The notes below the pieces were generated by a model that saw nothing but the letters and a program-made list of their open reading frames with translations, did no database searches and was not told the DNA's origin. Shown piece after piece: positions 1 to 25,715 of a DNA stretch of 26,347 nucleotides (position 1 is the first letter of the stretch; every line of letters begins with the position of its first letter). A program made the translations under genes and the position numbers. The stretch comes from a virus. The stretch is taken from IMG/VR virus record IMGVR_UViG_3300025154_000351, positions 1-26,347 of that record, one strand, 5' to 3'.

Positions 1-185
1 GTTTCGTTGCGGCCAACACCATAGCGGCGGCATTCAAGCGCGGGACTTCGATTGGGTATCCGACGGCCGCGCCTACACAGTACGTACACATGATGACTCC
101 GGGAATTCGTCATTTTCCAAAAATTTCTGACTCTTGGTACGGGCTTATCGTAAGCGCGGAATTCTGGGCGGATGTGTACGCATGA
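1..185 (+). CDS. Probable tail terminator / tail completion protein, C-terminal part (5' end outside window)
   Basis: The third forward frame is open from base 3 to a TGA at 183-185, giving the last 60 residues of a protein. It ends in a segment with SWYGLIVSAEFWADVYA, a polar then beta-strand-like tail. Proteins that cap the siphophage tail tube (DUF4128/lambda gpU-type terminators) commonly end this way, and they lie just before the major tail protein gene. Here the major tail gene is next except for an inserted endonuclease. The function therefore rests mainly on position plus a loose C-terminal resemblance. The stop codon overlaps the ATG of the following gene (ATGA), so translation is probably coupled. 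The start and most of the domain are not in the window. It could instead be another head-tail joining protein. Confidence 0.55.
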   Translation, partial: FVAANTIAAAFKRGTSIGYPTAAPTQYVHMMTPGIRHFPKISDSWYGLIVSAEFWADVYA

Positions 186-1051
186 GTATCGAGGAAATTG
201 TCAGGCCGTATGGGATTATTTATGCGGCGATCAATACTGTTACGCAAAAGTACTACATTGGAAAAACCGTGCGAAAGTTAGCACAGCGGAAGTCTGCCCA
301 TCTATCTGTTAGTAAGCGGGAATCTACGAATAGATTTTACAACTCAATTAGAAAACACGGTGCGGATGCTTTTTCTTGGTTTGTTGTAGACTACGCAGAT
401 AATGAGCAGGATCTTTGTGATAAAGAGGATCAATGGATGTGGGCAACAAACTCTCTGCATCCCATGTTTGGGTATAACTTGAAAACAGATTCTTTTGGTG
501 CGGTGAAAGGACGAAAGATGCCGAAAGAGTTCGGAGAGGCTATAGCAGAAAGAAAAAGAGGTGTTCCGAGAACTCCTGAGTGCAGAGCGAAGTTGAGCAA
601 GGCGCTAAAAGGAAGAAAACTGCCTTTGGAAACCAGAGCCAAGATGAGGGAAGCAAAGAAAGGAACAAGGCCCTCTGAGTTTTGTATGGAGAAAATGCGT
701 CTCTTTACACCGACAGAAGAGCAAAAAGCTCTGCGTAGACTTCGTAGGCACAGCGAAGAATCGAGGCAAAAAATGTCTTTGGTGCGGAAAGACTACTATA
801 AAGAACATCCTATGTCAGAGGAGCAACTTAAACTTTTTCGTGAAAGATTTAGAAAAAGCAATGGAAAACCTGTGCTTTGCGTTGAGACAGGGGAGGTATT
901 TGATTCTTTGGTAGCTGCAGCGGAGAAGTATGGTCCCGCTTCAGGAAATACTTATGGGCTTCTTCAGTGCCTTAAGAAAAGATGCCTTACATACAAGAAG
1001 CTACACTGGAAGTACAAAGCTAAGGAGGACTCGACTCTTGCTATTACTTGA
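182..1051 (+). CDS. Free-standing GIY-YIG homing endonuclease with NUMOD3 and NUMOD1 DNA-binding modules
   Basis: This 289-residue protein nicks or cuts DNA to spread its own gene. The GIY-YIG nuclease domain covers about residues 8-100, with GIIY at 11-14, YIG at 25-27 and a downstream Arg at about 36 (family catalytic residue). It is followed by several NUMOD3-type repeats (GRKMPKE, KRGVPRTPE, KGRKLPLE, KKGTRPSE; about 110-180) and a C-terminal NUMOD1/IENR1-like helix-turn-helix (about 232-285: PVLCVETGEVFDSLVAAAEK). I chose the ATG at 182 because it overlaps the upstream stop in an ATGA junction; the same frame is open further upstream from a TTG at 134, but that would overlap the previous gene by 50 bases. 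The gene is visibly richer in A and T than the tail genes around it, as expected for a mobile gene. It is not inside an intron or intein: both neighbours have intact ends. Confidence 0.92.
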   Translation: MSIEEIVRPYGIIYAAINTVTQKYYIGKTVRKLAQRKSAHLSVSKRESTNRFYNSIRKHGADAFSWFVVDYADNEQDLCDKEDQWMWATNSLHPMFGYNLKTDSFGAVKGRKMPKEFGEAIAERKRGVPRTPECRAKLSKALKGRKLPLETRAKMREAKKGTRPSEFCMEKMRLFTPTEEQKALRRLRRHSEESRQKMSLVRKDYYKEHPMSEEQLKLFRERFRKSNGKPVLCVETGEVFDSLVAAAEKYGPASGNTYGLLQCLKKRCLTYKKLHWKYKAKEDSTLAIT

Positions 1052-13200: not shown

Positions 13201-15095
13201 GAATAGGCGCTCACAATTCGAGGATCACGAAGAATGCTTCCTTGGTTCCTGCTCCTGTGGTGAGGGCCGTGGTCAATACGATAGAGAGGAACTACGCACA
13301 GCAGAGCCCCGGAGCGCAGGCTGTGGATATGGCGCTGACGCAGGGGGAGGGGGCGGGGTCCATTGCGGTGGACAAGACTGCGGTATGGGCTTCCCTTGCG
13401 GTGGCGAACGCAACAAACAACGCCGTCATTGGTGATGAATTTCTTGACGATTCCACCGGGCCTCTTCTGATCTATCGTTGCACGGTTGCCGCGCCTTCCG
13501 TAACTCTTGAAAACTCCGTGCGGATAAAAGCCAAGCAGTACGGAGACGTTGCAAATTCCACGGAGCTTAACGCTCTTACCGGAGAGATTTACGGGGATAC
13601 GGTGTATATGACCACCACTTCTCAGTGGTACAAGTATACGACGACGTGGATCGTTGACGGGGTGTCGATAGGGGGGACTGCAACAACAATAGTAGCGTCC
13701 AATGCTCCGCGTTATAGGGGAATAGGCCGTCTCGCGGCTACAGGAACCGCGAACTTCGCAGGCTATGAAGTGTCCGCCTCCACCTTTGTCGGGGGCGTGA
13801 TAACCGTGAATGGAACGGTAACAGCCACCACCACAATAACTCCGAACGTCAATGACTGGATGCTTAACTACTACAATGCCGGAGTCTCGACTCTTGCAAC
13901 TTTCCTGTGGAGCGGAAGTGCTTGGACGCAGACGGGAGTCACCGGGGAGATGCGCTCTGCGGCTCTTGAAGATATCTTCAGGCTCAATTGTCTGGCTACC
14001 CCTATTGTGATTACGGAAGGGACAACGTACATAGAAGCAATGATCTACAGGCTCTTTGCGAAATACGTGAAGATACTGACGGGCGGAAGCATAAGGGGAG
14101 GAGACAGGTATGACGAAAGCGGCTCGACTATTGATGGGACTAAGTCTGGGTTTTATATCTCGGCCAGCGGCTCCTGCAAGGTCGCTGGCATGGAGTTTGA
14201 AGGCTCCCAGGGGGGCGGGGTGCAGTGGGGCGGAGGTCAGCAGGTAGGTACTGATCTGAATATTGCGGGAGTAGGAACTTACGTAGCACTAGCGGCCATG
14301 AATGCTACAGACGTAGCTTTCTACGATAGTACTAACAGAGACCTTCGTATGTATCGTTGGAACGGTACGATATGGGCATATGTCGCAGGAAGTGAACTCA
14401 ATATTCCGGACGGAGCAAAACCTGCTCTCGCCGCAATGAATGGGACAGATGTGGCCTTCATAGACTATTTTAATGATGACCTTCGTATGTATCGTTGGAA
14501 CGGTACGATATGGTCATATGTCGCAGGAAGTGAACTCCATATTCCGGACGCAAGCTTCCCTGCTCTCGCCGCTATGAATGCTACAGACGTAGCGTTCATA
14601 GATGGGTTTAATGAAGACCTTCGTATGTATCGTTGGAACGGTACGATATGGGCATATGTCGCAGGAAGTGAACTCAATATTCCGGGAGTAGGAGAGCCCG
14701 CGCTGGCAGCCATGAATGCTACAGACGTAGCTTTCTTTGACAGCGGTAATCAAGACCTTCGTATGTATCGTTGGAACGGTACGATATGGGCATATGTCGC
14801 AGGAAGTGAACTCAATATTCCTTCTGCCGTTATCGGGTCTCTCACAGCATTAAATGGAACCGACATCGCTTTTGTAGATAACAGCAACGATGATCTCAGG
14901 ATATATCGTTGGAACGGCACGGTATGGGCGTATATCTCTTCCGCAGGAACACCTAACATAGGTGCAGGCCAGCCAGCACTAGCCGCAGTGAACGGTACAG
15001 ATGTAGCTTTTGTGGATAGCACTAATGCAGACCTCCGCCTCTACCGCTTCGCCTTCGCTCTCTCCATCCCCTACTCCCGGACCCTGACCGGCTGA
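10206..15095 (+). CDS. Central tail tip / host specificity protein (lambda gpJ-like) with fused gpI-like N-terminus and C-terminal repeat propeller
   Basis: 1629 residues. Residues 1-80 look like a beta-grasp (ubiquitin/MoaD-like) domain (KILEVAEGFSVRRALDS... DTLLVRVVPAG), and about 90-140 form a Gly-rich hydrophobic segment. Together these resemble lambda gpI, which is normally a separate gene. From about 155 it follows gpJ-type proteins: DGPVPIVFGKHLLTPSY, then the tail-hub region about 670-920 with YKIKFINAAENWAEDEMVVLDDG and FTVNQDFESLVVTRGDLVRVSHD. The region after about 1050 is beta-rich fibre. Residues 1351-1626 are six repeats of 46 residues, likely a beta-propeller at the tip. It should form the trimeric hub and fibre that contact the receptor. 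An ACAGGAG site lies before the ATG. Confidence 0.88.
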   Translation: MPRVVAFLHPLMSERKILEVAEGFSVRRALDSIEGLKKTSSLFVVLNDNRLPEESFDSTILGEEDTLLVRVVPAGISPNSSGTKDESFWDALLIGGGALIAGIGAIGVGALGWTGFGAVVGYAMMSIGSSMVMSAWAETATDTGDRSTDRRKDVSGASNSAEQDGPVPIVFGKHLLTPSYWTTPHTSISGTDGEDKYVHMLFALGYADKTRSDGSVKVSDIKFGDSVVASNAGDRRNTIDAASQIDVTTGTVGTVEVSIHQGSASAKTYLDLLGVGKVIKEQNLNLPLERWRAEQGSTVGAKIFTGSVTADDEMDGSIGRRLQFTGNAGFWSGLEYGAGAVNISGFTNAAFNGSFGIGWFSGSRLMSSTASGKVTAETANITAYQGASSLTFAVDSSTRTITRNSGSFLSYDDDVKYGALQVGDFVTYSSPLNTPAWTFPVSYVAPNGLSFKVSGAGTLVTEAATGLAQYWSSSSPVIETSKKTTSIAVEIEFPSGLIGWNEGARQNCTTTVKWYYRLKNTVPWLPGTAFSGSTAGVFTKQIPHTIRYTGTKTGLTSGQYEVRVQRETFDAQNSDRTDAVVWSALRSITGQDTIGLSDDDMKGVCFLAVKARASESLSGSIEKLNCVVEQVYRTYDGAGSAITDWSVDADETLSTNPAAAFLHALTGPINPRPITDTTKIDLAELGVLYAYCVTNAFQFNRVYTQDTTLRQMLTEILASCRSSLTLKDGLYSSVTDKAQTTIVQHISPRNSWGFSGSKSFEKMPHAYKIKFINAAENWAEDEMVVLDDGYKWDTDGDGILKDYAGTDRTADGAYTLASEFESLSVKDLGITDSATVKKFGRYLLACRRLRPETFTVNQDFESLVVTRGDLVRVSHDVPMWGLGQGRIKSVTYGSGGNVSSFIADELFQYTTGESYCVRIRTATGSEYATISNPGTSLSNTVTPVGVLTSAVESGQLVFFGETALESTEALVVATELNDDFSAKLTLVEYNAAVYTAEAGIGAHNSRITKNASLVPAPVVRAVVNTIERNYAQQSPGAQAVDMALTQGEGAGSIAVDKTAVWASLAVANATNNAVIGDEFLDDSTGPLLIYRCTVAAPSVTLENSVRIKAKQYGDVANSTELNALTGEIYGDTVYMTTTSQWYKYTTTWIVDGVSIGGTATTIVASNAPRYRGIGRLAATGTANFAGYEVSASTFVGGVITVNGTVTATTTITPNVNDWMLNYYNAGVSTLATFLWSGSAWTQTGVTGEMRSAALEDIFRLNCLATPIVITEGTTYIEAMIYRLFAKYVKILTGGSIRGGDRYDESGSTIDGTKSGFYISASGSCKVAGMEFEGSQGGGVQWGGGQQVGTDLNIAGVGTYVALAAMNATDVAFYDSTNRDLRMYRWNGTIWAYVAGSELNIPDGAKPALAAMNGTDVAFIDYFNDDLRMYRWNGTIWSYVAGSELHIPDASFPALAAMNATDVAFIDGFNEDLRMYRWNGTIWAYVAGSELNIPGVGEPALAAMNATDVAFFDSGNQDLRMYRWNGTIWAYVAGSELNIPSAVIGSLTALNGTDIAFVDNSNDDLRIYRWNGTVWAYISSAGTPNIGAGQPALAAVNGTDVAFVDSTNADLRLYRFAFALSIPYSRTLTG
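14256..15083 (+). repeat. Six tandem 138-bp repeats (46-residue units) at the 3' end of the J-like gene
   Basis: The anchor GACCTTCGTATGTATCG and its variants recur at 14340, 14478, 14616, 14754, 14892 and 15030, exactly 138 bases apart. In units 1, 3 and 4 a 68-base block from the anchor is identical; unit 2 differs at two or three bases; units 5 and 6 are diverged. The other half of each unit varies mainly at two loops: the residues after the NIP turn, and those around the Asp-x-x-Asn motif. Each unit has four short strands (ALAAM, DVAFxD, DLRMYRW, WAYVA), the layout of one beta-propeller blade. Confidence 0.93.
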
Positions 15096-15188: not shown

Positions 15189-15599
15189 ATGGATGCAACA
15201 GAGCTGATGCGTTTCGAGTCCCTCGAAAGACTCGCGGAAAGCCTCGACAAGAAGATACGGGAACTTGAACTGGTTCTTGTGCATCTTCCCCCCGCCATTC
15301 AAGCCCTTCAGACTTCGGTTTCCTGCCTTGAAGGGCAAGTCAGCGCCATAGAGAACGACCTTTCCGCACGCGAAGAGAGGGACAAGAACATCGACAGGGT
15401 TCTTGCCGAGATCAAGGAGATGCTGAAGACCTACACGGACGAGATGAAAGAGGCATTCCGTGTATTATCGGAGCGCATCGGAACCATAGAAAGCAGGCCG
15501 TCAAAGATGTGGGACGCCGTTGTTTTCGCCTTTGCCGCAGCCATCGGAGGCGGGGTTTTCGCTTTGGTCGGGAATCTGTTTCCGAAGGCCGCGCCGTGA
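15189..15599 (+). CDS. Coiled-coil protein with C-terminal membrane helix (holin/XhlA-like candidate)
   Basis: 136 residues. Residues 5-105 are a long heptad-rich helix (LERLAESLDKKIRELELVL... ENDLSAREERDKNIDRVLAEI). A single membrane segment follows at about 108-131 (WDAVVFAFAAAIGGGVFALV) with a short tail. XhlA-type phage haemolysin/holin accessory proteins have the same build: an N-terminal cytoplasmic coiled coil and one C-terminal helix. It opens the lysis block just after the promoter. The stop overlaps the GTG of the lipase gene. The ATG at 15189 is preceded by only a weak AAAGGCAGG site. A holin or holin-regulating role is inferred; a structural role is possible. Confidence 0.6.
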   Translation: MDATELMRFESLERLAESLDKKIRELELVLVHLPPAIQALQTSVSCLEGQVSAIENDLSAREERDKNIDRVLAEIKEMLKTYTDEMKEAFRVLSERIGTIESRPSKMWDAVVFAFAAAIGGGVFALVGNLFPKAAP

Positions 15600-16204
15600 G
15601 CACAAAAACCACAACGTCCACATGGGAGGCAACATACCTCGATCTCTACAACAAATGCACCCATGGGCCATGGAGGACATCCCCCCGCGATGTCCAGTGG
15701 CGTCTGGATTCCGATAACGCCCTCTATTTCCAATGTTCCGCCAGCCCTTCTGACTGGAAACACAATTTCCTTTTCTGCCCGAAGGCAGTACGTGCGTACA
15801 AAGGAGCTTCTTGGTACGCCCATGAAGGCTTCCTCCTCCTTTGGAAATCCGTGCAAAATGAGATCATGTCGGCCCTCGCGGGGGCTACTCCATCAATAAT
15901 CGCAGGATACTCCCATGGAGGCGCTCTTGCGACCCTTGCCCATGAGGACCTTCACTTCAGGGGTCTTCGCCCGAATACGGTTACTTTCGGCAGTCCGCGT
16001 GTTGTATGGAATCCCTTCAGACTGAACAGAGAAATTGACAAACGTTTCCTGCAGGTATATAATATTGCTGTGCAAGGAGATATTGTGACGAAAGTACCTC
16101 CGGCAGTGTTTGGATATGTCACCGAAGGAAGGACGGCGAAGATAGGGCCTCTGTCTCTTCCCTCCGCAGCCAATCATGCGAAGTACAGGGAGTACCTTGA
16201 GTGA
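15596..16204 (+). CDS. Class-3 lipase / alpha-beta hydrolase
   Basis: 202 residues with the complete lipase class-3 signature: nucleophile Ser106 in GYSHGGALAT, Asp162 in QGDIVTKVPP, His194 in AANHAKYREY, and the TFGSPRV strand at 130-136. Such enzymes cleave ester bonds in acylglycerols or other lipids. There is no signal peptide, so like many endolysins it would need a holin to reach its target. I chose the GTG at 15596 because it overlaps the previous stop as GTGA; the frame is open upstream from 15509, but that part is out of register with the real preceding gene. It lies in the lysis block, so the likely substrate is an envelope lipid or lipoprotein ester, by analogy with the LysB esterases of mycobacteriophages. 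The substrate cannot be read from the sequence. Confidence 0.85.
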   Translation: MSTKTTTSTWEATYLDLYNKCTHGPWRTSPRDVQWRLDSDNALYFQCSASPSDWKHNFLFCPKAVRAYKGASWYAHEGFLLLWKSVQNEIMSALAGATPSIIAGYSHGGALATLAHEDLHFRGLRPNTVTFGSPRVVWNPFRLNREIDKRFLQVYNIAVQGDIVTKVPPAVFGYVTEGRTAKIGPLSLPSAANHAKYREYLE

Positions 16205-16269: not shown

Positions 16270-16791
16270 ATGAAGTGGGTATTCCTGAGAAAAACAGAAG
16301 AGTTGCTGGTGGACATGGGAACCGTCTACAACGGAATTCCGCAGTTCCTTGTTTTCCATTGTACCTCGGATGTCAGGAATGAACTGAATGGTAGGCGAAG
16401 GCTTCATGATCCCCGAGAGGTAGTGCGCACGATCCCCGGAGCCTATCCGTATATGCCACGCCCGTTTCCTGTGGGCGAGTTTGATGTAACCGGAGTGAAA
16501 TACAGAGATAAAAGTGACCCCGAGTACGGCTATCTTGGCCCTGCCTTCATCCAGACCAACGCATATCAGATGGTGAGAATCTGGAGCCTTGACAAAGTAG
16601 GGGGATATGAAGCGGAGACCGCAGGAATTGCGAAGGATACTGCGTACGGATTCCATGCAGCTCCTGCGTCAAAGACCACGCAAGGGTGCGGAAGATTGAG
16701 GTCGGAAAAAGACGCTCTTGCCCTTGCCCAGCTTGTTGAGCAGGAACTTGCCACCAAAAGAAAGATAACTCTTGTGGTCAAGGATGAGTGA
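16270..16791 (+). CDS. L,D-transpeptidase (YkuD)-fold protein, candidate peptidoglycan-active lysis enzyme
   Basis: 173 residues. The features of the YkuD fold appear in order: PYMPRPFPVGEFDVTGV (about 60-76; compare the family's TPxGxF turn), His129 in YGFHAAP, then TTQGCGRLRSEKDAL with Cys140 and Arg142 (compare the family's SHGCIRLxxxDA). These are the catalytic Cys, His and Arg of L,D-transpeptidases, which attack stem peptides of peptidoglycan. There is no signal peptide. I chose the ATG at 16270, 5 bases after AAAGGAG; an alternative GTG at 16201 overlaps the lipase stop and would add 23 residues. It is the only peptidoglycan-directed enzyme I see in the lysis block, so it may be the endolysin. 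The fold call is from motifs only, and the first 50 residues do not match anything I know. Confidence 0.6.
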   Translation: MKWVFLRKTEELLVDMGTVYNGIPQFLVFHCTSDVRNELNGRRRLHDPREVVRTIPGAYPYMPRPFPVGEFDVTGVKYRDKSDPEYGYLGPAFIQTNAYQMVRIWSLDKVGGYEAETAGIAKDTAYGFHAAPASKTTQGCGRLRSEKDALALAQLVEQELATKRKITLVVKDE

Positions 16792-17034: not shown

Positions 17035-17268
17035 ATGAAGAAGATAACTGAATTCTTTGAAGGACTTGCCAAGCTCATTTGGGATTTCTTCACCGACAAG
17101 AACAATGACGGCGACGAGAAGCGTCTGCTTGGGGTCGCCTCCATCCTCATAGGTTTCTTCTATGGAGTACAGCCGAATCCGGACCCTACGGTCCTTTGGG
17201 CCTACCTAGGATTTGGGGGCACCCTCCTCGGAGTCTCCGCGTTCAGTGACAAGATCCCGCGAAATTAG
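17035..17268 (+). CDS. Holin candidate (two membrane helices)
   Basis: 77 residues. An amphipathic N-terminus (MKKITEFFEGLAKLIWDFFT) is followed by a charged turn (DKNNDGDEKR) and two hydrophobic helices (about 38-52, LLGVASILIGFFYGV; about 59-72, VLWAYLGFGGTLLGVS). Size, two helices and position between lysis enzymes and spanin-like genes fit a class II or III holin, which opens the inner membrane at the end of infection. I placed the start at the ATG at 17035, one base after the previous stop and 6-7 bases after GGGGAGG. It could instead be an antiholin paired with the 15189-15599 protein. Confidence 0.65.
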   Translation: MKKITEFFEGLAKLIWDFFTDKNNDGDEKRLLGVASILIGFFYGVQPNPDPTVLWAYLGFGGTLLGVSAFSDKIPRN

Positions 17269-17271
17269 CAC

Positions 17272-17287
17272 AAGGAGCAACAATGTG
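17272..17287 (+). promoter_or_regulatory. One ribosome binding site serving two overlapping start codons
   Basis: AAGGAG (17272-17277) is followed 5 bases later by ATG (17283-17285), and its last base begins GTG (17285-17287), 7 bases from the same site. Each start opens a long frame with a membrane segment and coiled coil. Both spacings are within the working range of a Shine-Dalgarno site. Confidence 0.6.
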
Positions 17288-17855
17288 GAAAAACGCGCTC
17301 TTCTTCGTTTTGTTGCAAATATTTTCCTTGTCCTTCTCGTGGCCGCAGCAGGAATCTTCAGCTACAGATATGTCCAATCAGACAGAAACCTCAGAGCAAT
17401 TACTTCTGAGATGGGCGAAAGTAAACGCGCTCTTGCAGAGCTTGGACGACTCGAACAAGAAGCAAGAGTCATGGCTTCAGGACTCCTTGAAACTCTTGGT
17501 GCAAAACAAAGAGAGCTTGAACTCGCAGAGGGAAGAATTGCTTCAATTGAAGAACAGCTACGACGAAGCAGTGAAAGAGAAGCAAAGGATAGAGGCAGAA
17601 TTGAGTCTCTTGAAAGAGGACTTGCGGAAAGCGACAGAATCCGGGAAGCTCTCGATGGAGCAATCACGGAATCTCTTGGAGAAACTGGAAGAAACGGAGA
17701 GATCATACATGACCTTGGCATCGAACTTTCGGAAATTAGAAATCTCTATCAAGAAGCTGAAGAGGGACATTGAATTCTGGCAGTTTGTCGCGGGCGCGGA
17801 AGCCGTTGTAATTGTCGTTCTCTCCGCGATCAGCATCGTGGCAGTTATCTTTTGA
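17283..17855 (+). CDS. Spanin-like coiled-coil protein A (N-terminal signal, C-terminal membrane helix)
   Basis: 190 residues. Residues 3-19 are hydrophobic like a signal peptide (ALFFVLLQIFSLSFSW). Residues 30-165 are a long heptad coiled coil (LLQLKNSYDEAVKEKQRIEA, LLEKLEETERSYMTL). About 168-190 are a membrane helix (VAGAEAVVIVVLSAISIVAV). This layout recalls unimolecular spanins, which bridge outer and inner membrane, but there is no lipobox Cys; the protein has no Cys at all. The ATG has an ideal AAGGAG, and the frame fills the space up to the next gene. Leucine is mostly TTG, unlike other genes here. It fully contains a second long frame (17285-17773). If only one is real, the extension beyond 17773 and normal spacing to the next gene favour this one. 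Confidence 0.75.
   Translation: MWKNALFFVLLQIFSLSFSWPQQESSATDMSNQTETSEQLLLRWAKVNALLQSLDDSNKKQESWLQDSLKLLVQNKESLNSQREELLQLKNSYDEAVKEKQRIEAELSLLKEDLRKATESGKLSMEQSRNLLEKLEETERSYMTLASNFRKLEISIKKLKRDIEFWQFVAGAEAVVIVVLSAISIVAVIF
17285..17773 (+). CDS. Spanin-like coiled-coil protein B (i-spanin topology), nested in the +2 frame of protein A
   Basis: 162 residues from a GTG that shares its first base with the end of protein A's ATG. The N-terminus is basic (MEKRALLRF), then one membrane helix at about 9-27 (VANIFLVLLVAAAGIFSY), then a long charged coiled coil to the end (ELGRLEQEARVMASGLL, IASIEEQLRRSSEREAKD, IESLERGLAESDRIREAL). This is the topology of lambda Rz-type inner-membrane spanins. Codon use matches the phage better than protein A does: leucine is almost all CTT/CTC, with many GAA, GGA, AGA and GCA. 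The third forward frame has a stop near 17404. Against it: purine-rich coiled-coil genes leave other frames unusually open, and a 119-codon antisense frame is open here too. Confidence 0.6.
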   Translation: MEKRALLRFVANIFLVLLVAAAGIFSYRYVQSDRNLRAITSEMGESKRALAELGRLEQEARVMASGLLETLGAKQRELELAEGRIASIEEQLRRSSEREAKDRGRIESLERGLAESDRIREALDGAITESLGETGRNGEIIHDLGIELSEIRNLYQEAEEGH

Positions 17856-17882: not shown

Positions 17883-18677
17883 ATGGCAGTCAACGTACTG
17901 ATCATGGGAGACACCCACGGAGGTGCTGCGGGCGGTTTATTGCCGCCCCCGTACTGGTCCGAGCAACTGAAGGTGATGCAATCTTTGGCCTACGGATGGT
18001 GGCTTGAAGCAATTACGGAATTCGGGCCTTGGGATGTTGGATTGTTCACCGGAGACGCAACAGATGGCGAGGGGAAGAAAGGGACCATGGATACCGTGAT
18101 CCCCGACACTTTAGAGCAAGCCGCTTCCCAAGAGGAAATATACGCCGCCCCCGGAATAGAAAAACAAAATATGTACTTTGTCAGAGGCACCCCCTTCCAC
18201 AGTTCCGGCACCTACAATTACGAAGATCCGCTGGCAAAAGCTCTCGGGGCATCCATCGAAAACGAGCAGCTTGTTTCTATCCTCGGCCTAAAAATCCATC
18301 TGCGTCACGCCCTCGGACGAAGCGATACCGCCTACGGGCAGGGAACTCCTTTGTTCCGTGAGAGTATCAGGGATCTTGTGGATGCCACGCTCTCGGAGCA
18401 GGAGCCCGCTGATATCGTGATCCGGGGGCATGTCCACTACTCCTGCAGGATGACAATCGGGAAGCGGACGGCAATCTCGGCTCCTTGTATGGAGTATCCG
18501 GATTCGGTGTTCGGGAGGACCTGTCGGGGAATGTACTACGACATGGGAATCGGGAAGCTGGTTGTTCGGAGCGCTACGGATTGGGAGTACCATCCCATTC
18601 TCATGCCCCTGAAAGTCGTAAAACGAAGAGAATACAAGGAAATATGCAGTGGGGAGGAATTCTCGAATGGTCGATGA
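17883..18677 (+). CDS. Calcineurin-like metallophosphoesterase
   Basis: 264 residues with the metal-binding signature spread along the chain: Asp10 and His12 (GDTHGG), Asp58 (FTGDATDG), His106 (RGTPFHSSG), His142 (RHALG) and His183/His185 (RGHVHY). The usual GNH(D/E) third motif is replaced by GTPFH, so Asn and its neighbour are lost or shifted. Phage members of this superfamily act on nucleic-acid ends, cyclic nucleotides or nucleotides; the substrate here is unknown. An AGAGGAG site lies 8 bases before the ATG. Its 3' end overlaps the next start by 11 bases. It sits after the lysis genes and may belong to middle rather than late functions. Confidence 0.85.
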   Translation: MAVNVLIMGDTHGGAAGGLLPPPYWSEQLKVMQSLAYGWWLEAITEFGPWDVGLFTGDATDGEGKKGTMDTVIPDTLEQAASQEEIYAAPGIEKQNMYFVRGTPFHSSGTYNYEDPLAKALGASIENEQLVSILGLKIHLRHALGRSDTAYGQGTPLFRESIRDLVDATLSEQEPADIVIRGHVHYSCRMTIGKRTAISAPCMEYPDSVFGRTCRGMYYDMGIGKLVVRSATDWEYHPILMPLKVVKRREYKEICSGEEFSNGR

Positions 18678-22709: not shown

Positions 22710-24634
22710 TACGTTTGCGCTCCTTTTAGCATTTCGTCAAAGTCGGCTTCGTTTACTTCCGCCCAGTTCTTCCCGTACTCCGCAGAAGCTATTACCGGGA
22801 CGTTTATCTTTATACAGTTTTCCATTATATGCTTCAGCTCTTTGAACGCCTCTACTCCCGCTTTGTCAAGATGAAATGATCCGTCCAATTCATCGTGTAC
22901 AGTTATAGTAGGCGTAAGATAGGAGAATACTCCTGCTTCGTTAGCATCCGTCATGGACTTCTTCATGAAGTCAGCACAACCTGACTGGCAGAGCCGGTTA
23001 AGGAAAACATAGGATTTTTTTTCGGCCCTCATTTTGTCTGAGTATCTGCTCCTTCGTCCCAGTACAGAGTAAATATAGCCTCTCTTTGTCACTACGTCCT
23101 CGACAAGCCTATTTGTCGCTTTCAAGAACGGAGCAAGATGCATATATTGGTCGTACAACTCCTTTGCGTGTTTCAAATCCCACATATACTTCTTCGCCAT
23201 TGACTTGTAACTCATATTGTATGCTAAGGCAAAATTGAGCGTTTTGGCCGTTTTGCGGTCCACTCCAACCATCTTCTGAATCATCTCATGATAGTCTGTT
23301 TTCGGATCTTTATTGTATTGCGCCTTTATGTTGGCCGATCCTGGGCCTACCGAGTACGAGGCGATCAGCCGATACTCCATTTGGCTGAAGTCTATCTTGA
23401 ACCACGATTGTCCGTCCTCGGGAATCATTATGTTTCTGCAAAGCGGATCAAATCCTCCTTTTGCCACTCCGATGTTTTGGGCGTTGGGATTGCTACTACT
23501 GAATCTTCCAGAAAGCGTTCCCGATTCATCGTTCATATACGGGTAGAAGGAAGGATGAATTCTTCCTTCAGTCACCTGCTCTTGGAAGTACCCGTTTATA
23601 TACGTCCCGAGAGTTTTGGCTATTTTCTTCATGGACCATACCGAGGTAGCTGTCGGGTGTGCTTCTTTCGCCATGTCAAGAACCAAAGCGTCTATCGACG
23701 GATATTGAAGATAGTATTTCCTCTGTTCTTCTTTCGACATGCGGAGTTCTTCAAACAAAGGTTTCTCGTTAACGCCATCCAGTCTTTTCGGATCGACACT
23801 TCTCTCTAGTTTTTCAAGAAGAAGTTTCTTCCCCGCATTCGATACTTCAAAAGGAATTTCTTCCCGGTCAAAAATGATTGCGAGTTGCTTGGAAGATCCG
23901 TAGTTGACTCCGGGATACTTTGAGTACCACTCCTTCTCAAGTCTTCCAAGATTGTCCCTGTGGATCACCTCCACTTCTTGCCTCTTCTTCTCATCAATAC
24001 GAATTCCGGTCTTTTTCATCCTCGTGAGAATGGGGAATAGCTTGCGCTCCATGGCGTAAAGTTCGGTAAGGCCTTGGGCCTCCAACTCTTTTATCTGGAG
24101 TTCAATTATTGGTACCAGCAATGCCGTATCTTCTTTGGCGTATTCCTCAACGAGAGAAAATGGCATCTTTGCCAAATGAGCGCGTGGGTCTCCTTTCAGG
24201 CCATGCGAGTCACAGAACTCCTGAAGGATATCTTTCTTCTTTTTCCTGTTCAAATATCTCCCGGCTATGGCGTCAAGAGAGTACGCACCGAAATGTTCCC
24301 CTATCAGGCTCTCGGCGTGCTGCACGTCATACATGCTTCCTTTGACTTCGAATCCGTGCTTGTTAACAAGGTAATCGTAGTCGTACATCCCCGATGCGGT
24401 TATCTTGTCGCAGGGGTCAAGCAATAAATCCTTTACGACGTCAATGTTCCTTCTTCTCTCAACTATTGGAGTATCTTCGTGGCCAAGGGTAAGATACTTG
24501 TTCATACCGAGATCGTCGGCAAAAGATACTCCTAGGACGTAGGAGTCTCCTCGGTACACTCCGTTCCCAAGGCGCTTGAACTTCTCTTGGTTTTCAGAGA
24601 CCTCGATGTCTACGGCGAGCCACCTTCTACTCAT
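22709..24634 (-). CDS. Family A DNA polymerase with 3'-5' exonuclease
   Basis: 641 residues, the phage's replicative polymerase. The proofreading domain is intact: AVDIEV (Asp9, Glu11), an Asp at 85-87 (GMYDYDYL) and EEYAKEDTALL (Tyr165, Asp169). Polymerase motif A is WFKIDFSQMEYRLIA (Asp415, Glu420, Arg422). Motif B is RKTAKTLNFALAYN (Arg460, Lys464, Phe468, Tyr472). Motif C is TVHDELDG (His580, Asp581, Glu582). There is no 5'-nuclease domain, as usual for phage enzymes. Phe468 favours dNTPs over ddNTPs. The Gly that normally follows the motif B Tyr is Asn473. The ATG overlaps the homing endonuclease gene by 8 bases, with GAAGGA upstream. Confidence 0.96.
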   Translation of the reverse strand: MSRRWLAVDIEVSENQEKFKRLGNGVYRGDSYVLGVSFADDLGMNKYLTLGHEDTPIVERRRNIDVVKDLLLDPCDKITASGMYDYDYLVNKHGFEVKGSMYDVQHAESLIGEHFGAYSLDAIAGRYLNRKKKKDILQEFCDSHGLKGDPRAHLAKMPFSLVEEYAKEDTALLVPIIELQIKELEAQGLTELYAMERKLFPILTRMKKTGIRIDEKKRQEVEVIHRDNLGRLEKEWYSKYPGVNYGSSKQLAIIFDREEIPFEVSNAGKKLLLEKLERSVDPKRLDGVNEKPLFEELRMSKEEQRKYYLQYPSIDALVLDMAKEAHPTATSVWSMKKIAKTLGTYINGYFQEQVTEGRIHPSFYPYMNDESGTLSGRFSSSNPNAQNIGVAKGGFDPLCRNIMIPEDGQSWFKIDFSQMEYRLIASYSVGPGSANIKAQYNKDPKTDYHEMIQKMVGVDRKTAKTLNFALAYNMSYKSMAKKYMWDLKHAKELYDQYMHLAPFLKATNRLVEDVVTKRGYIYSVLGRRSRYSDKMRAEKKSYVFLNRLCQSGCADFMKKSMTDANEAGVFSYLTPTITVHDELDGSFHLDKAGVEAFKELKHIMENCIKINVPVIASAEYGKNWAEVNEADFDEMLKGAQT

Positions 24635-25715
24635 TCGAGTTCATTCCTTCTCTGCCCGTCTCACCCATGAGTACCCCGGGGAGCAATCTGTTTTCCAATT
24701 TAATCTTCTCCTTCACCGCGTCCTCCAAAGTGAGGCAATGTTTACTTTGGTATCTTCTCTTGTTGACCGTTATGTAAGCTGCCCAAAACTCTTTACCTTT
24801 CGACTTTTGCTTATAAATTCCCTTGAATCCCGACGTGTTCTTTTCGCATAACCTTGAATTCCGTACGTTAACAGCCTGTGTGACCGCTCTCAGATTCGCC
24901 CGTCTGTTGTCCTTTCTATTTCTATTTATGTGGTCAATGACCAAGCCTTCTGGTTCTCCAAGAAGCCATCTAGACAAAGTAACGAATCTACGCCTCGCAC
25001 CGTCTCTAACGACTGCCGTGTACACTACATACCGGTCGTCGTATTTTTCTACTTGTTTCTTTTCTCCTTTGTTTATAAACCAAGGAGAGATGCTTTGAGC
25101 CAAGTCGAAATCAGAAGCGTCAATAAGGACTTCATCTCCTCTGATGTCCACCCTTATGCTACCTTCAGGGTCTCCTTTTATATGACCAAGATTTACAAGA
25201 CTCATAGGAGTTACCACCGATAGGTTCTCTCTCCTGAAATCGAGCCTATTTTTATTTTTGAACTCTACGGTAATTTCCGGGGAAGTTTCCGTGATGAACT
25301 TATGAAGAGCTTGCCCATCATTTTCCAGACAAAGAAGTCCTTTGTGCGTTTTCGGCTTCCATTGTCCCCTTTCTTTTATTCTACTCACGTCTTCTGTGGA
25401 GACCGTAATAACTACGTCAGCCCTCAGTTTTATATTAGAAACCCCTTCCTTCTCTGACAGTAGAACAAAGCAAGAAGGTGAGTGCACTCTCAGGTTTTCC
25501 TTTTTGAAATTAAGCCTGTCTTTGCTTATGAAAAATACTTTCTCGCCTTCGAGCGGAGATTTAATAAACTGGGCAAGAGAGATTGAGGATTTTGCTTGTT
25601 CAAACACCAAGAGGCCGTTGTTCTGTATCGTCCTCCACGGACCAGCTTCCAGTATTTTCTGGACGTCTTCCGCGTCTACTTGAATCCAACGGTCAGCCAG
25701 AGTAATCGTAGCCAT
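24627..25715 (-). CDS. HNH homing endonuclease with AP2 domain and two degenerate HNH-module copies
   Basis: 362 residues. The active part is an HNH_3 domain at about 186-282 (FVTLSRWLLGEPEGLVIDHI, Asp261-His262, RNRKDNRRANLRAVTQ) followed by an AP2 DNA-binding domain at about 294-340 (TSGFKGIYKQKSKGKEFWAA). The first 170 residues hold two more copies of the same module at about 3-80 and 94-170. Each has the ED..L/I...W opening, a Phe-Ile strand and an RLxFxxENL ending, but the DH pair is replaced (ISKDRLNF, KNKNRLDF), so both should be inactive. The start has AAGGAG inside the end of the XRE gene. The gene sits between a regulator and the polymerase, a common homing site. Confidence 0.88.
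   Translation of the reverse strand: MATITLADRWIQVDAEDVQKILEAGPWRTIQNNGLLVFEQAKSSISLAQFIKSPLEGEKVFFISKDRLNFKKENLRVHSPSCFVLLSEKEGVSNIKLRADVVITVSTEDVSRIKERGQWKPKTHKGLLCLENDGQALHKFITETSPEITVEFKNKNRLDFRRENLSVVTPMSLVNLGHIKGDPEGSIRVDIRGDEVLIDASDFDLAQSISPWFINKGEKKQVEKYDDRYVVYTAVVRDGARRRFVTLSRWLLGEPEGLVIDHINRNRKDNRRANLRAVTQAVNVRNSRLCEKNTSGFKGIYKQKSKGKEFWAAYITVNKRRYQSKHCLTLEDAVKEKIKLENRLLPGVLMGETGREGMNSNE

Follow-up and report, generated by a model that had tools for sequence, protein, structure and literature searches.

Overlapping ATG and GTG starts open two long reading frames in a putative phage lysis cassette

Organization of the locus and its start site

The window, that is, the whole stretch of DNA analysed here (26,347 nt), is a 26.3-kb IMG/VR record. 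Two long overlapping reading frames, A and B, are located within a gene cluster that reads as a lysis cassette, the lysis roles of the neighbouring genes being predicted from their sequences. The features of this region are listed below; L002, L003, and L004 are related IMG/VR contigs.

15189..15599, plus strand: XhlA-like coiled-coil protein with a C-terminal hydrophobic helix (phrog_937 'hemolysin', E 2.7e-7)
15593..16204, plus strand: class 3 lipase (Pfam PF01764, E 8.5e-16; phrog_21992, E 2.5e-15)
16270..16791, plus strand: YkuD-fold protein, probable peptidoglycan-active enzyme (Pfam PF03734, 23.9 bits against a cut-off of 23.4)
17035..17268, plus strand: holin-like protein of 77 aa with two hydrophobic segments (from sequence)
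17272..17277, plus strand: Shine-Dalgarno (SD) sequence AAGGAG, common to both frames (from sequence; GGAG with a 5-nt spacer also in L002 and L004)
17283..17287, plus strand: overlapping starts ATGTG, with ATG at 17283-17285 and GTG at 17285-17287 (from sequence; kept in L002, L003, and L004)
17283..17855, plus strand: frame A, 190 aa, opened by ATG (from sequence; signal-like N-terminus, coiled coil, C-terminal helix)
17285..17773, plus strand: frame B, 162 aa, opened by GTG (from sequence; N-terminal helix, long coiled-coil helix)
17772..17855, plus strand: A-only tail past the last codon of B, encoding the C-terminal helix of A (from sequence comparison)

The other neighbours are a tail-tip protein and a 58-aa ORF upstream, and a phosphoesterase-like protein downstream of A/B. 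The holin-like protein gave no family match. The host is probably Gram-negative, as the matches of the tail-tip protein are to phages with Gram-negative (proteobacterial) hosts. The class 3 lipase, flanked by the genes for the XhlA-like and YkuD-fold proteins, could target host membranes during lysis.

Tandem repeats (ALAAMNATDVAFIDxxNxDLRMYRWNG...; window about 14400-15050) form the end of the tail-tip protein, and differ in sequence and arrangement in L004. An off-frame ORF inside the tail protein is open in L004 too. Proteins of the GIY-YIG and HNH homing-endonuclease type were recognized by eye at window 134-1051 and 24627-25715.

A single AAGGAG is followed by the spacer CAACA (5 nt) and by ATGTG, from which frames of 190 and 162 residues are opened; every coordinate of this arrangement in the original prediction was reproduced, as was the early stop of the third forward frame, which comes after 41 codons in the window and after 13 in the relatives. 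B lies in the -1 frame of A, GUG opening the +2 frame. The SD-to-start distance, counted as in Kohl et al. (2022, PMC9841429), is 12 for AUG and 14 for GUG, presuming the usual anti-SD in the host, and GGAG plus five bases gives likewise 12/14 in L002 and L004. On AUGUG sites in E. coli, GUG alone is used when AUG/GUG are at 10/12 or 11/13, almost only AUG is used at 13/15 and beyond, and both starts are used at 12/14, with a preference for AUG of 2-3.5-fold in vitro and of about 10-fold in vivo; of all AUGUG geometries, 12/14 alone was shown to let E. coli ribosomes use either start from a single SD (PMC9841429). With one SD at the distance 12/14, the A/B start agrees with the definition of an ambiguous AUGUG site in that study. 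This distance is the strongest point of the locus, and had been overlooked in the original prediction. Altogether, the dual-frame arrangement with its dual-use start geometry is confirmed, and is conserved in three versions.

The sequence GGAG-N5-ATGTG occurs at five sites in about 120 kb (both strands of the window and of the 93.6-kb relative), and only at the A/B locus of each are both frames long, the longest elsewhere being 60 codons. Open length by itself is weak evidence, since overlapping ORF pairs on the same strand are common in this phage: those sharing at least 360 nt number six in the window and 15 in the 93.6-kb relative. The predicted pairing partner of the SD is, in each of the three versions, a pyrimidine stretch near the beginning of the coding sequence (window 17272-17305); comparison of start-region RNA folds with shuffled sequences gave nothing unusual (z 0.33, 1.11, and -0.34). 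In L004, the stop TAA of the upstream gene overlaps the ATG of A, which allows translational coupling.

Conservation in relatives

Relatives of the locus in IMG/VR are three contigs only, L002 and L003 (identical at the locus) and L004, giving three distinct A/B sequences, of which two are close. The original prediction would have fallen with stops or frameshifts in one frame of close relatives, and none were found: L002/L003 and L004 all keep both frames, of 197 and 169 codons. Between the window and L002, the first 45 codons of A show strong divergence, with changes at 39 of 114 aligned sites, and an in-register indel of 21 nt (seven codons) lies in the N-terminal region, yet both frames stay open and the hydrophobic N-terminus of both A and B is retained despite many substitutions there. 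The holin-like gene is swapped in the relatives for an unrelated two-helix protein of 103-104 aa (L002:2350-2661; L004:5609-5923) with the flanking genes kept; A/B was thus retained while its upstream neighbour was exchanged.

No homologs of A or B were obtained by tblastn from 50,697 phage records. When A, B, and the phosphoesterase, YkuD, and XhlA proteins were compared with viral_contigs, nothing was detected beyond the same few contigs; a scan with the polymerase detected none, and A found no match in genome_contigs. A tape-measure match to another contig, L022, was set aside as a relative, for it spans only 59 residues and the phosphoesterase has no match in that genome.

The window and L002 are nearly identical at window 17968-18208 (three differences in 240 bases), flanked by more diverged stretches, which suggests mosaic recombination. 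An extra gene of 174-191 aa follows the phosphoesterase in the relatives (L002:4046-4570; L004:7234-7809), and is absent from the window.

Predicted properties of proteins A and B

Protein A has a short signal-like hydrophobic N-terminus, a coiled coil at about 36-163, and a hydrophobic C-terminal helix at about 165-190 without a cytoplasmic tail. Protein B starts with a strongly hydrophobic N-terminus (19-residue mean 2.37-2.62), containing a transmembrane helix at about 6-27 of predicted type II, and continues as a single long coiled-coil helix of predicted periplasmic location. AlphaFold modelling, with an alignment of three sequences, gave long helices only for both proteins. The claim that the two frames behind one SD encode different membrane topologies is supported and the difference is kept in the relatives, the orientations being predictions. 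The topology of A is uncertain, because KKLKR precedes its C-terminal helix on the presumed periplasmic side and no positive residues follow the helix, in conflict with the positive-inside rule. As had been noted, both proteins are long and neither has a lipobox; Cys is absent from A and B in all three versions. Family matches of the SMC/Rad50 type were rejected as coiled-coil bias, and the same bias accounts for Rz-like matches, which appeared only at noise level (phrog_89, E 0.066; TIGR03495, 16.8 bits against a cut-off of 92.75).

Coding of frame A

Coding of A is strongly supported by the substitution pattern. In the A-only tail, all three sites that vary among the relatives are synonymous in A. 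In the overlap core, substitutions at A codon positions 1, 2, and 3 number 5/4/9, 2/6/8, and 5/7/11 in the three comparisons (next gene, 9/4/68). Coding in B alone would load position 2 of A, where few changes are found (4 of 18, 6 of 16, and 7 of 23), and on this count B alone is excluded. The heptad of A is stronger than B would force (P 0.001-0.012). The codon score of A is 0.037, against a null of -0.048 given B (P=0.0014; <=3e-4 in the relatives); across versions, it ranges over 0.012-0.037, below that of B, and is still above what B forces (P <=0.0014).

That B is the only gene and A an overprinted non-gene is therefore highly improbable: the phage-like codon use of B would fit, but A owns the ATG and the conserved tail past the stop of B, in which only silent changes occur, its heptad is not forced by B, and too few changes fall on third positions of B. 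A single product made by ribosomal frameshifting between the frames, instead of two starts, might be considered from the location of B in the -1 frame of A. This is extremely improbable, as B possesses a well-spaced start itself and inspection by eye of the early part of the three versions revealed no conserved slippery heptamer.

Coding of frame B

Coding of B is moderately supported and probable, as judged from codon use, start geometry, and substitutions. The Leu codons of B are CTT (14 of 22) and CTC (7 of 22), and TTG is the largest class in A (15 of 30), in agreement with the contrast drawn originally. The codon score of B is 0.077, against a null of -0.029 given the protein of A (P<1e-4; <=3e-4 in all three versions), and its range across versions, 0.062-0.077, falls within that of confirmed phage genes (0.06-0.15). 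This phage-typical codon use is unforced by the protein of A, and thus supports B coding. The probability that the B frame is open, given the protein of A and the codon use of A itself, is 0.0014-0.004.

The opposite reading, that A is the sole gene, with B as an off-frame whose openness follows from the composition of A and with an incidental GTG, is unlikely, though it draws on several observations. Overlapping ORFs of comparable size often arise by chance in this phage, and there is also the one inside the tail protein. Some 7% of the mutations silent in A would introduce a stop into B, and the intact B of three sequences therefore carries only modest information. A partly dictates both the heptad of B (P 0.05-0.10) and its hydrophobic N-terminus (P 0.016-0.10). 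A heptad in one frame brings with it, to a large extent, one in the other frame, so that the overlap of two coiled coils is less remarkable than at first sight; the heptad of B mostly echoes that of A, a caveat overlooked in the original prediction, and the use of the two heptads as independent evidence was dropped for B. What this reading does not explain is that the start geometry is exactly that of dual use and is conserved, and that B is more phage-like in codons than A, the reverse of the usual case of a real gene with a chance ORF. In control pairs, mostly one frame scores gene-like and the other does not, the score being noisy and with exceptions.

Substitution rates that take the overlap into account (three sequences) were dNN 0.047, dSN 0.090, dNS 0.071, and dSS 0.73. 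Sites silent in both frames thus change the most, but the value for dSS rests on about two such sites. The ratio dNN/dSN for A is 0.52 (0.23-1.12) and dNN/dNS for B is 0.66 (0.35-1.27), both intervals including 1; the selection signal of B is weak and leaves room for an A-only gene. Between the window and L002, third positions take about 50% of changes in the overlap versus 60-94% in neighbouring genes, against the expectation for A alone. The overlap is strongly depleted of A-silent changes in comparison with the neighbouring genes (dS 0.22-0.41). The depletion of changes silent in A and nonsilent in B (p 1e-8 to 1e-13, window pairs) was rejected as proof of B: the A-only, non-overlapped tail is equally low in silent change (2-3 of 22 sites) and the regional rates form a mosaic, so that the depletion is not creditable to B alone.

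Taken together, A and B are probably both translated and functional. The proposal of an overprinted gene is plausible, and the phage-like codon use of B, less so in A, points to B as the older frame; the further suggestion that overprinting was caught in the act is not supported, both frames being already intact in all three known versions.

Possible role in lysis

Two-component spanins consist of an i-spanin and a lipoprotein o-spanin, u-spanins combine a lipobox and a C-terminal TMD in one protein, and spanins are missing from some phages (Kongari et al. 2018, PMC6139136). B has the N-terminal TMD and, in its predicted orientation, the periplasmic domain of an i-spanin, and the locus lies in the putative lysis cassette. 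Neither A nor B has the lipobox cysteine of an outer-membrane lipoprotein o-spanin, a periplasmic cysteine for intermolecular disulfides, or an Rz/LysB family match, and A has the C-terminal hydrophobic helix of a unimolecular spanin but no Cys. When the window and the 93.6-kb L002 contig, neither a proven complete genome, were subjected to a simple lipobox scan, no credible lipoprotein gene was found: of five weak matches, zero had a convincing SD and most overlapped other ORFs. Without Cys and without a credible lipoprotein, membership among the spanins fails, and by sequence A/B is no canonical spanin pair. The proposal of a new form of two-component spanin lacks the defining lipoprotein but may still apply to the function: given dual coding, spanin-like action is the most probable role, with a chance somewhat above one half.

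The best explanation as a whole, to which we assign a probability of roughly 0.48, is a dual-coding late gene whose products A and B take part in outer-membrane disruption. From the one SD, ribosomes would start on the AUGUG at 12/14 either at AUG, giving A in a probably larger share, or at GUG, giving B. Export of A would depend on its N-terminal signal, with the C-terminal helix as its anchor, and B would be anchored by its N-terminal helix. Both coils, each about 19 nm if fully helical, would lie in the periplasm in opposite orientation, and A and B, paired or separately, would help to disrupt the outer membrane once the holin and the YkuD enzyme have acted. Dual initiation in the host of this phage, the topologies, the pairing, and the spanin-like role are what we infer.

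Alternatively, both frames may be translated for another purpose, for instance as a holin regulator or two inner-membrane scaffolds, the outer membrane being disrupted by the lipase or by nothing. The lipase in the cassette, the lack of lipobox, Cys, or lipoprotein in the sequence searched, and the existence of phages without spanins (PMC6139136) agree with such a role, but the place after the holin-like gene and the long periplasmic-coil topology fit an envelope-spanning task, and we regard this alternative as rather unlikely. We tentatively propose, as a possibility with the odds against it, a lipoprotein-free two-protein envelope-disrupting system, in which type I and type II inner-membrane coiled coils are made from the same DNA at a ratio fixed via AUGUG.

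Comparison with known systems

The A/B locus is a natural candidate for AUGUG ambiguous initiation serving two long proteins. If true, A/B would be without known precedent as a long, selected gene pair initiated in this manner. AUGUG dual initiation is known from reporters and from native sites with second frames of 10-15 codons (PMC9841429). That a heptad in one frame cheapens a heptad in another may be an easy way for overprinted coiled coils to arise.

The native single-SD example is E. coli pqiA, with UAAGGAG, while tamA uses both starts through two SDs (PMC9841429). Like A/B, pqiA has AUGUG, one SD with an AAGGAG core, the distance 12/14, and a +2 frame from GUG, but its second frame is 15 codons and unproven in the cell, whereas the B frame is 162-169 codons, conserved, and its product structured-looking. 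Thermus rnpA-rpmH, as described in PMC9841429, likewise gives two full-length proteins in two frames from one initiation site, but from separate AUGs (AUGGAUG), for ribosomal and RNase P proteins on a bacterial chromosome. The lambda S holin/antiholin gene, in the description of the same paper, is a lysis gene whose two start codons lie very near each other, but these are in the same frame, give products two residues apart, and need two SDs.

Among spanins (PMC6139136), lambda Rz/Rz1 is similar in its lysis-cassette location, two proteins in two frames, and the Rz-type topology of B, but Rz1 is a short lipoprotein, and A and B are both long without lipobox or Cys; embedded o-spanins mostly start mid-gene, and the A/B starts overlap instead. 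The unimolecular spanin of the T1 gp11 type resembles A in its N-terminal export signal and C-terminal hydrophobic helix, but A is without lipobox, helical rather than beta-rich, and accompanied by a second frame.
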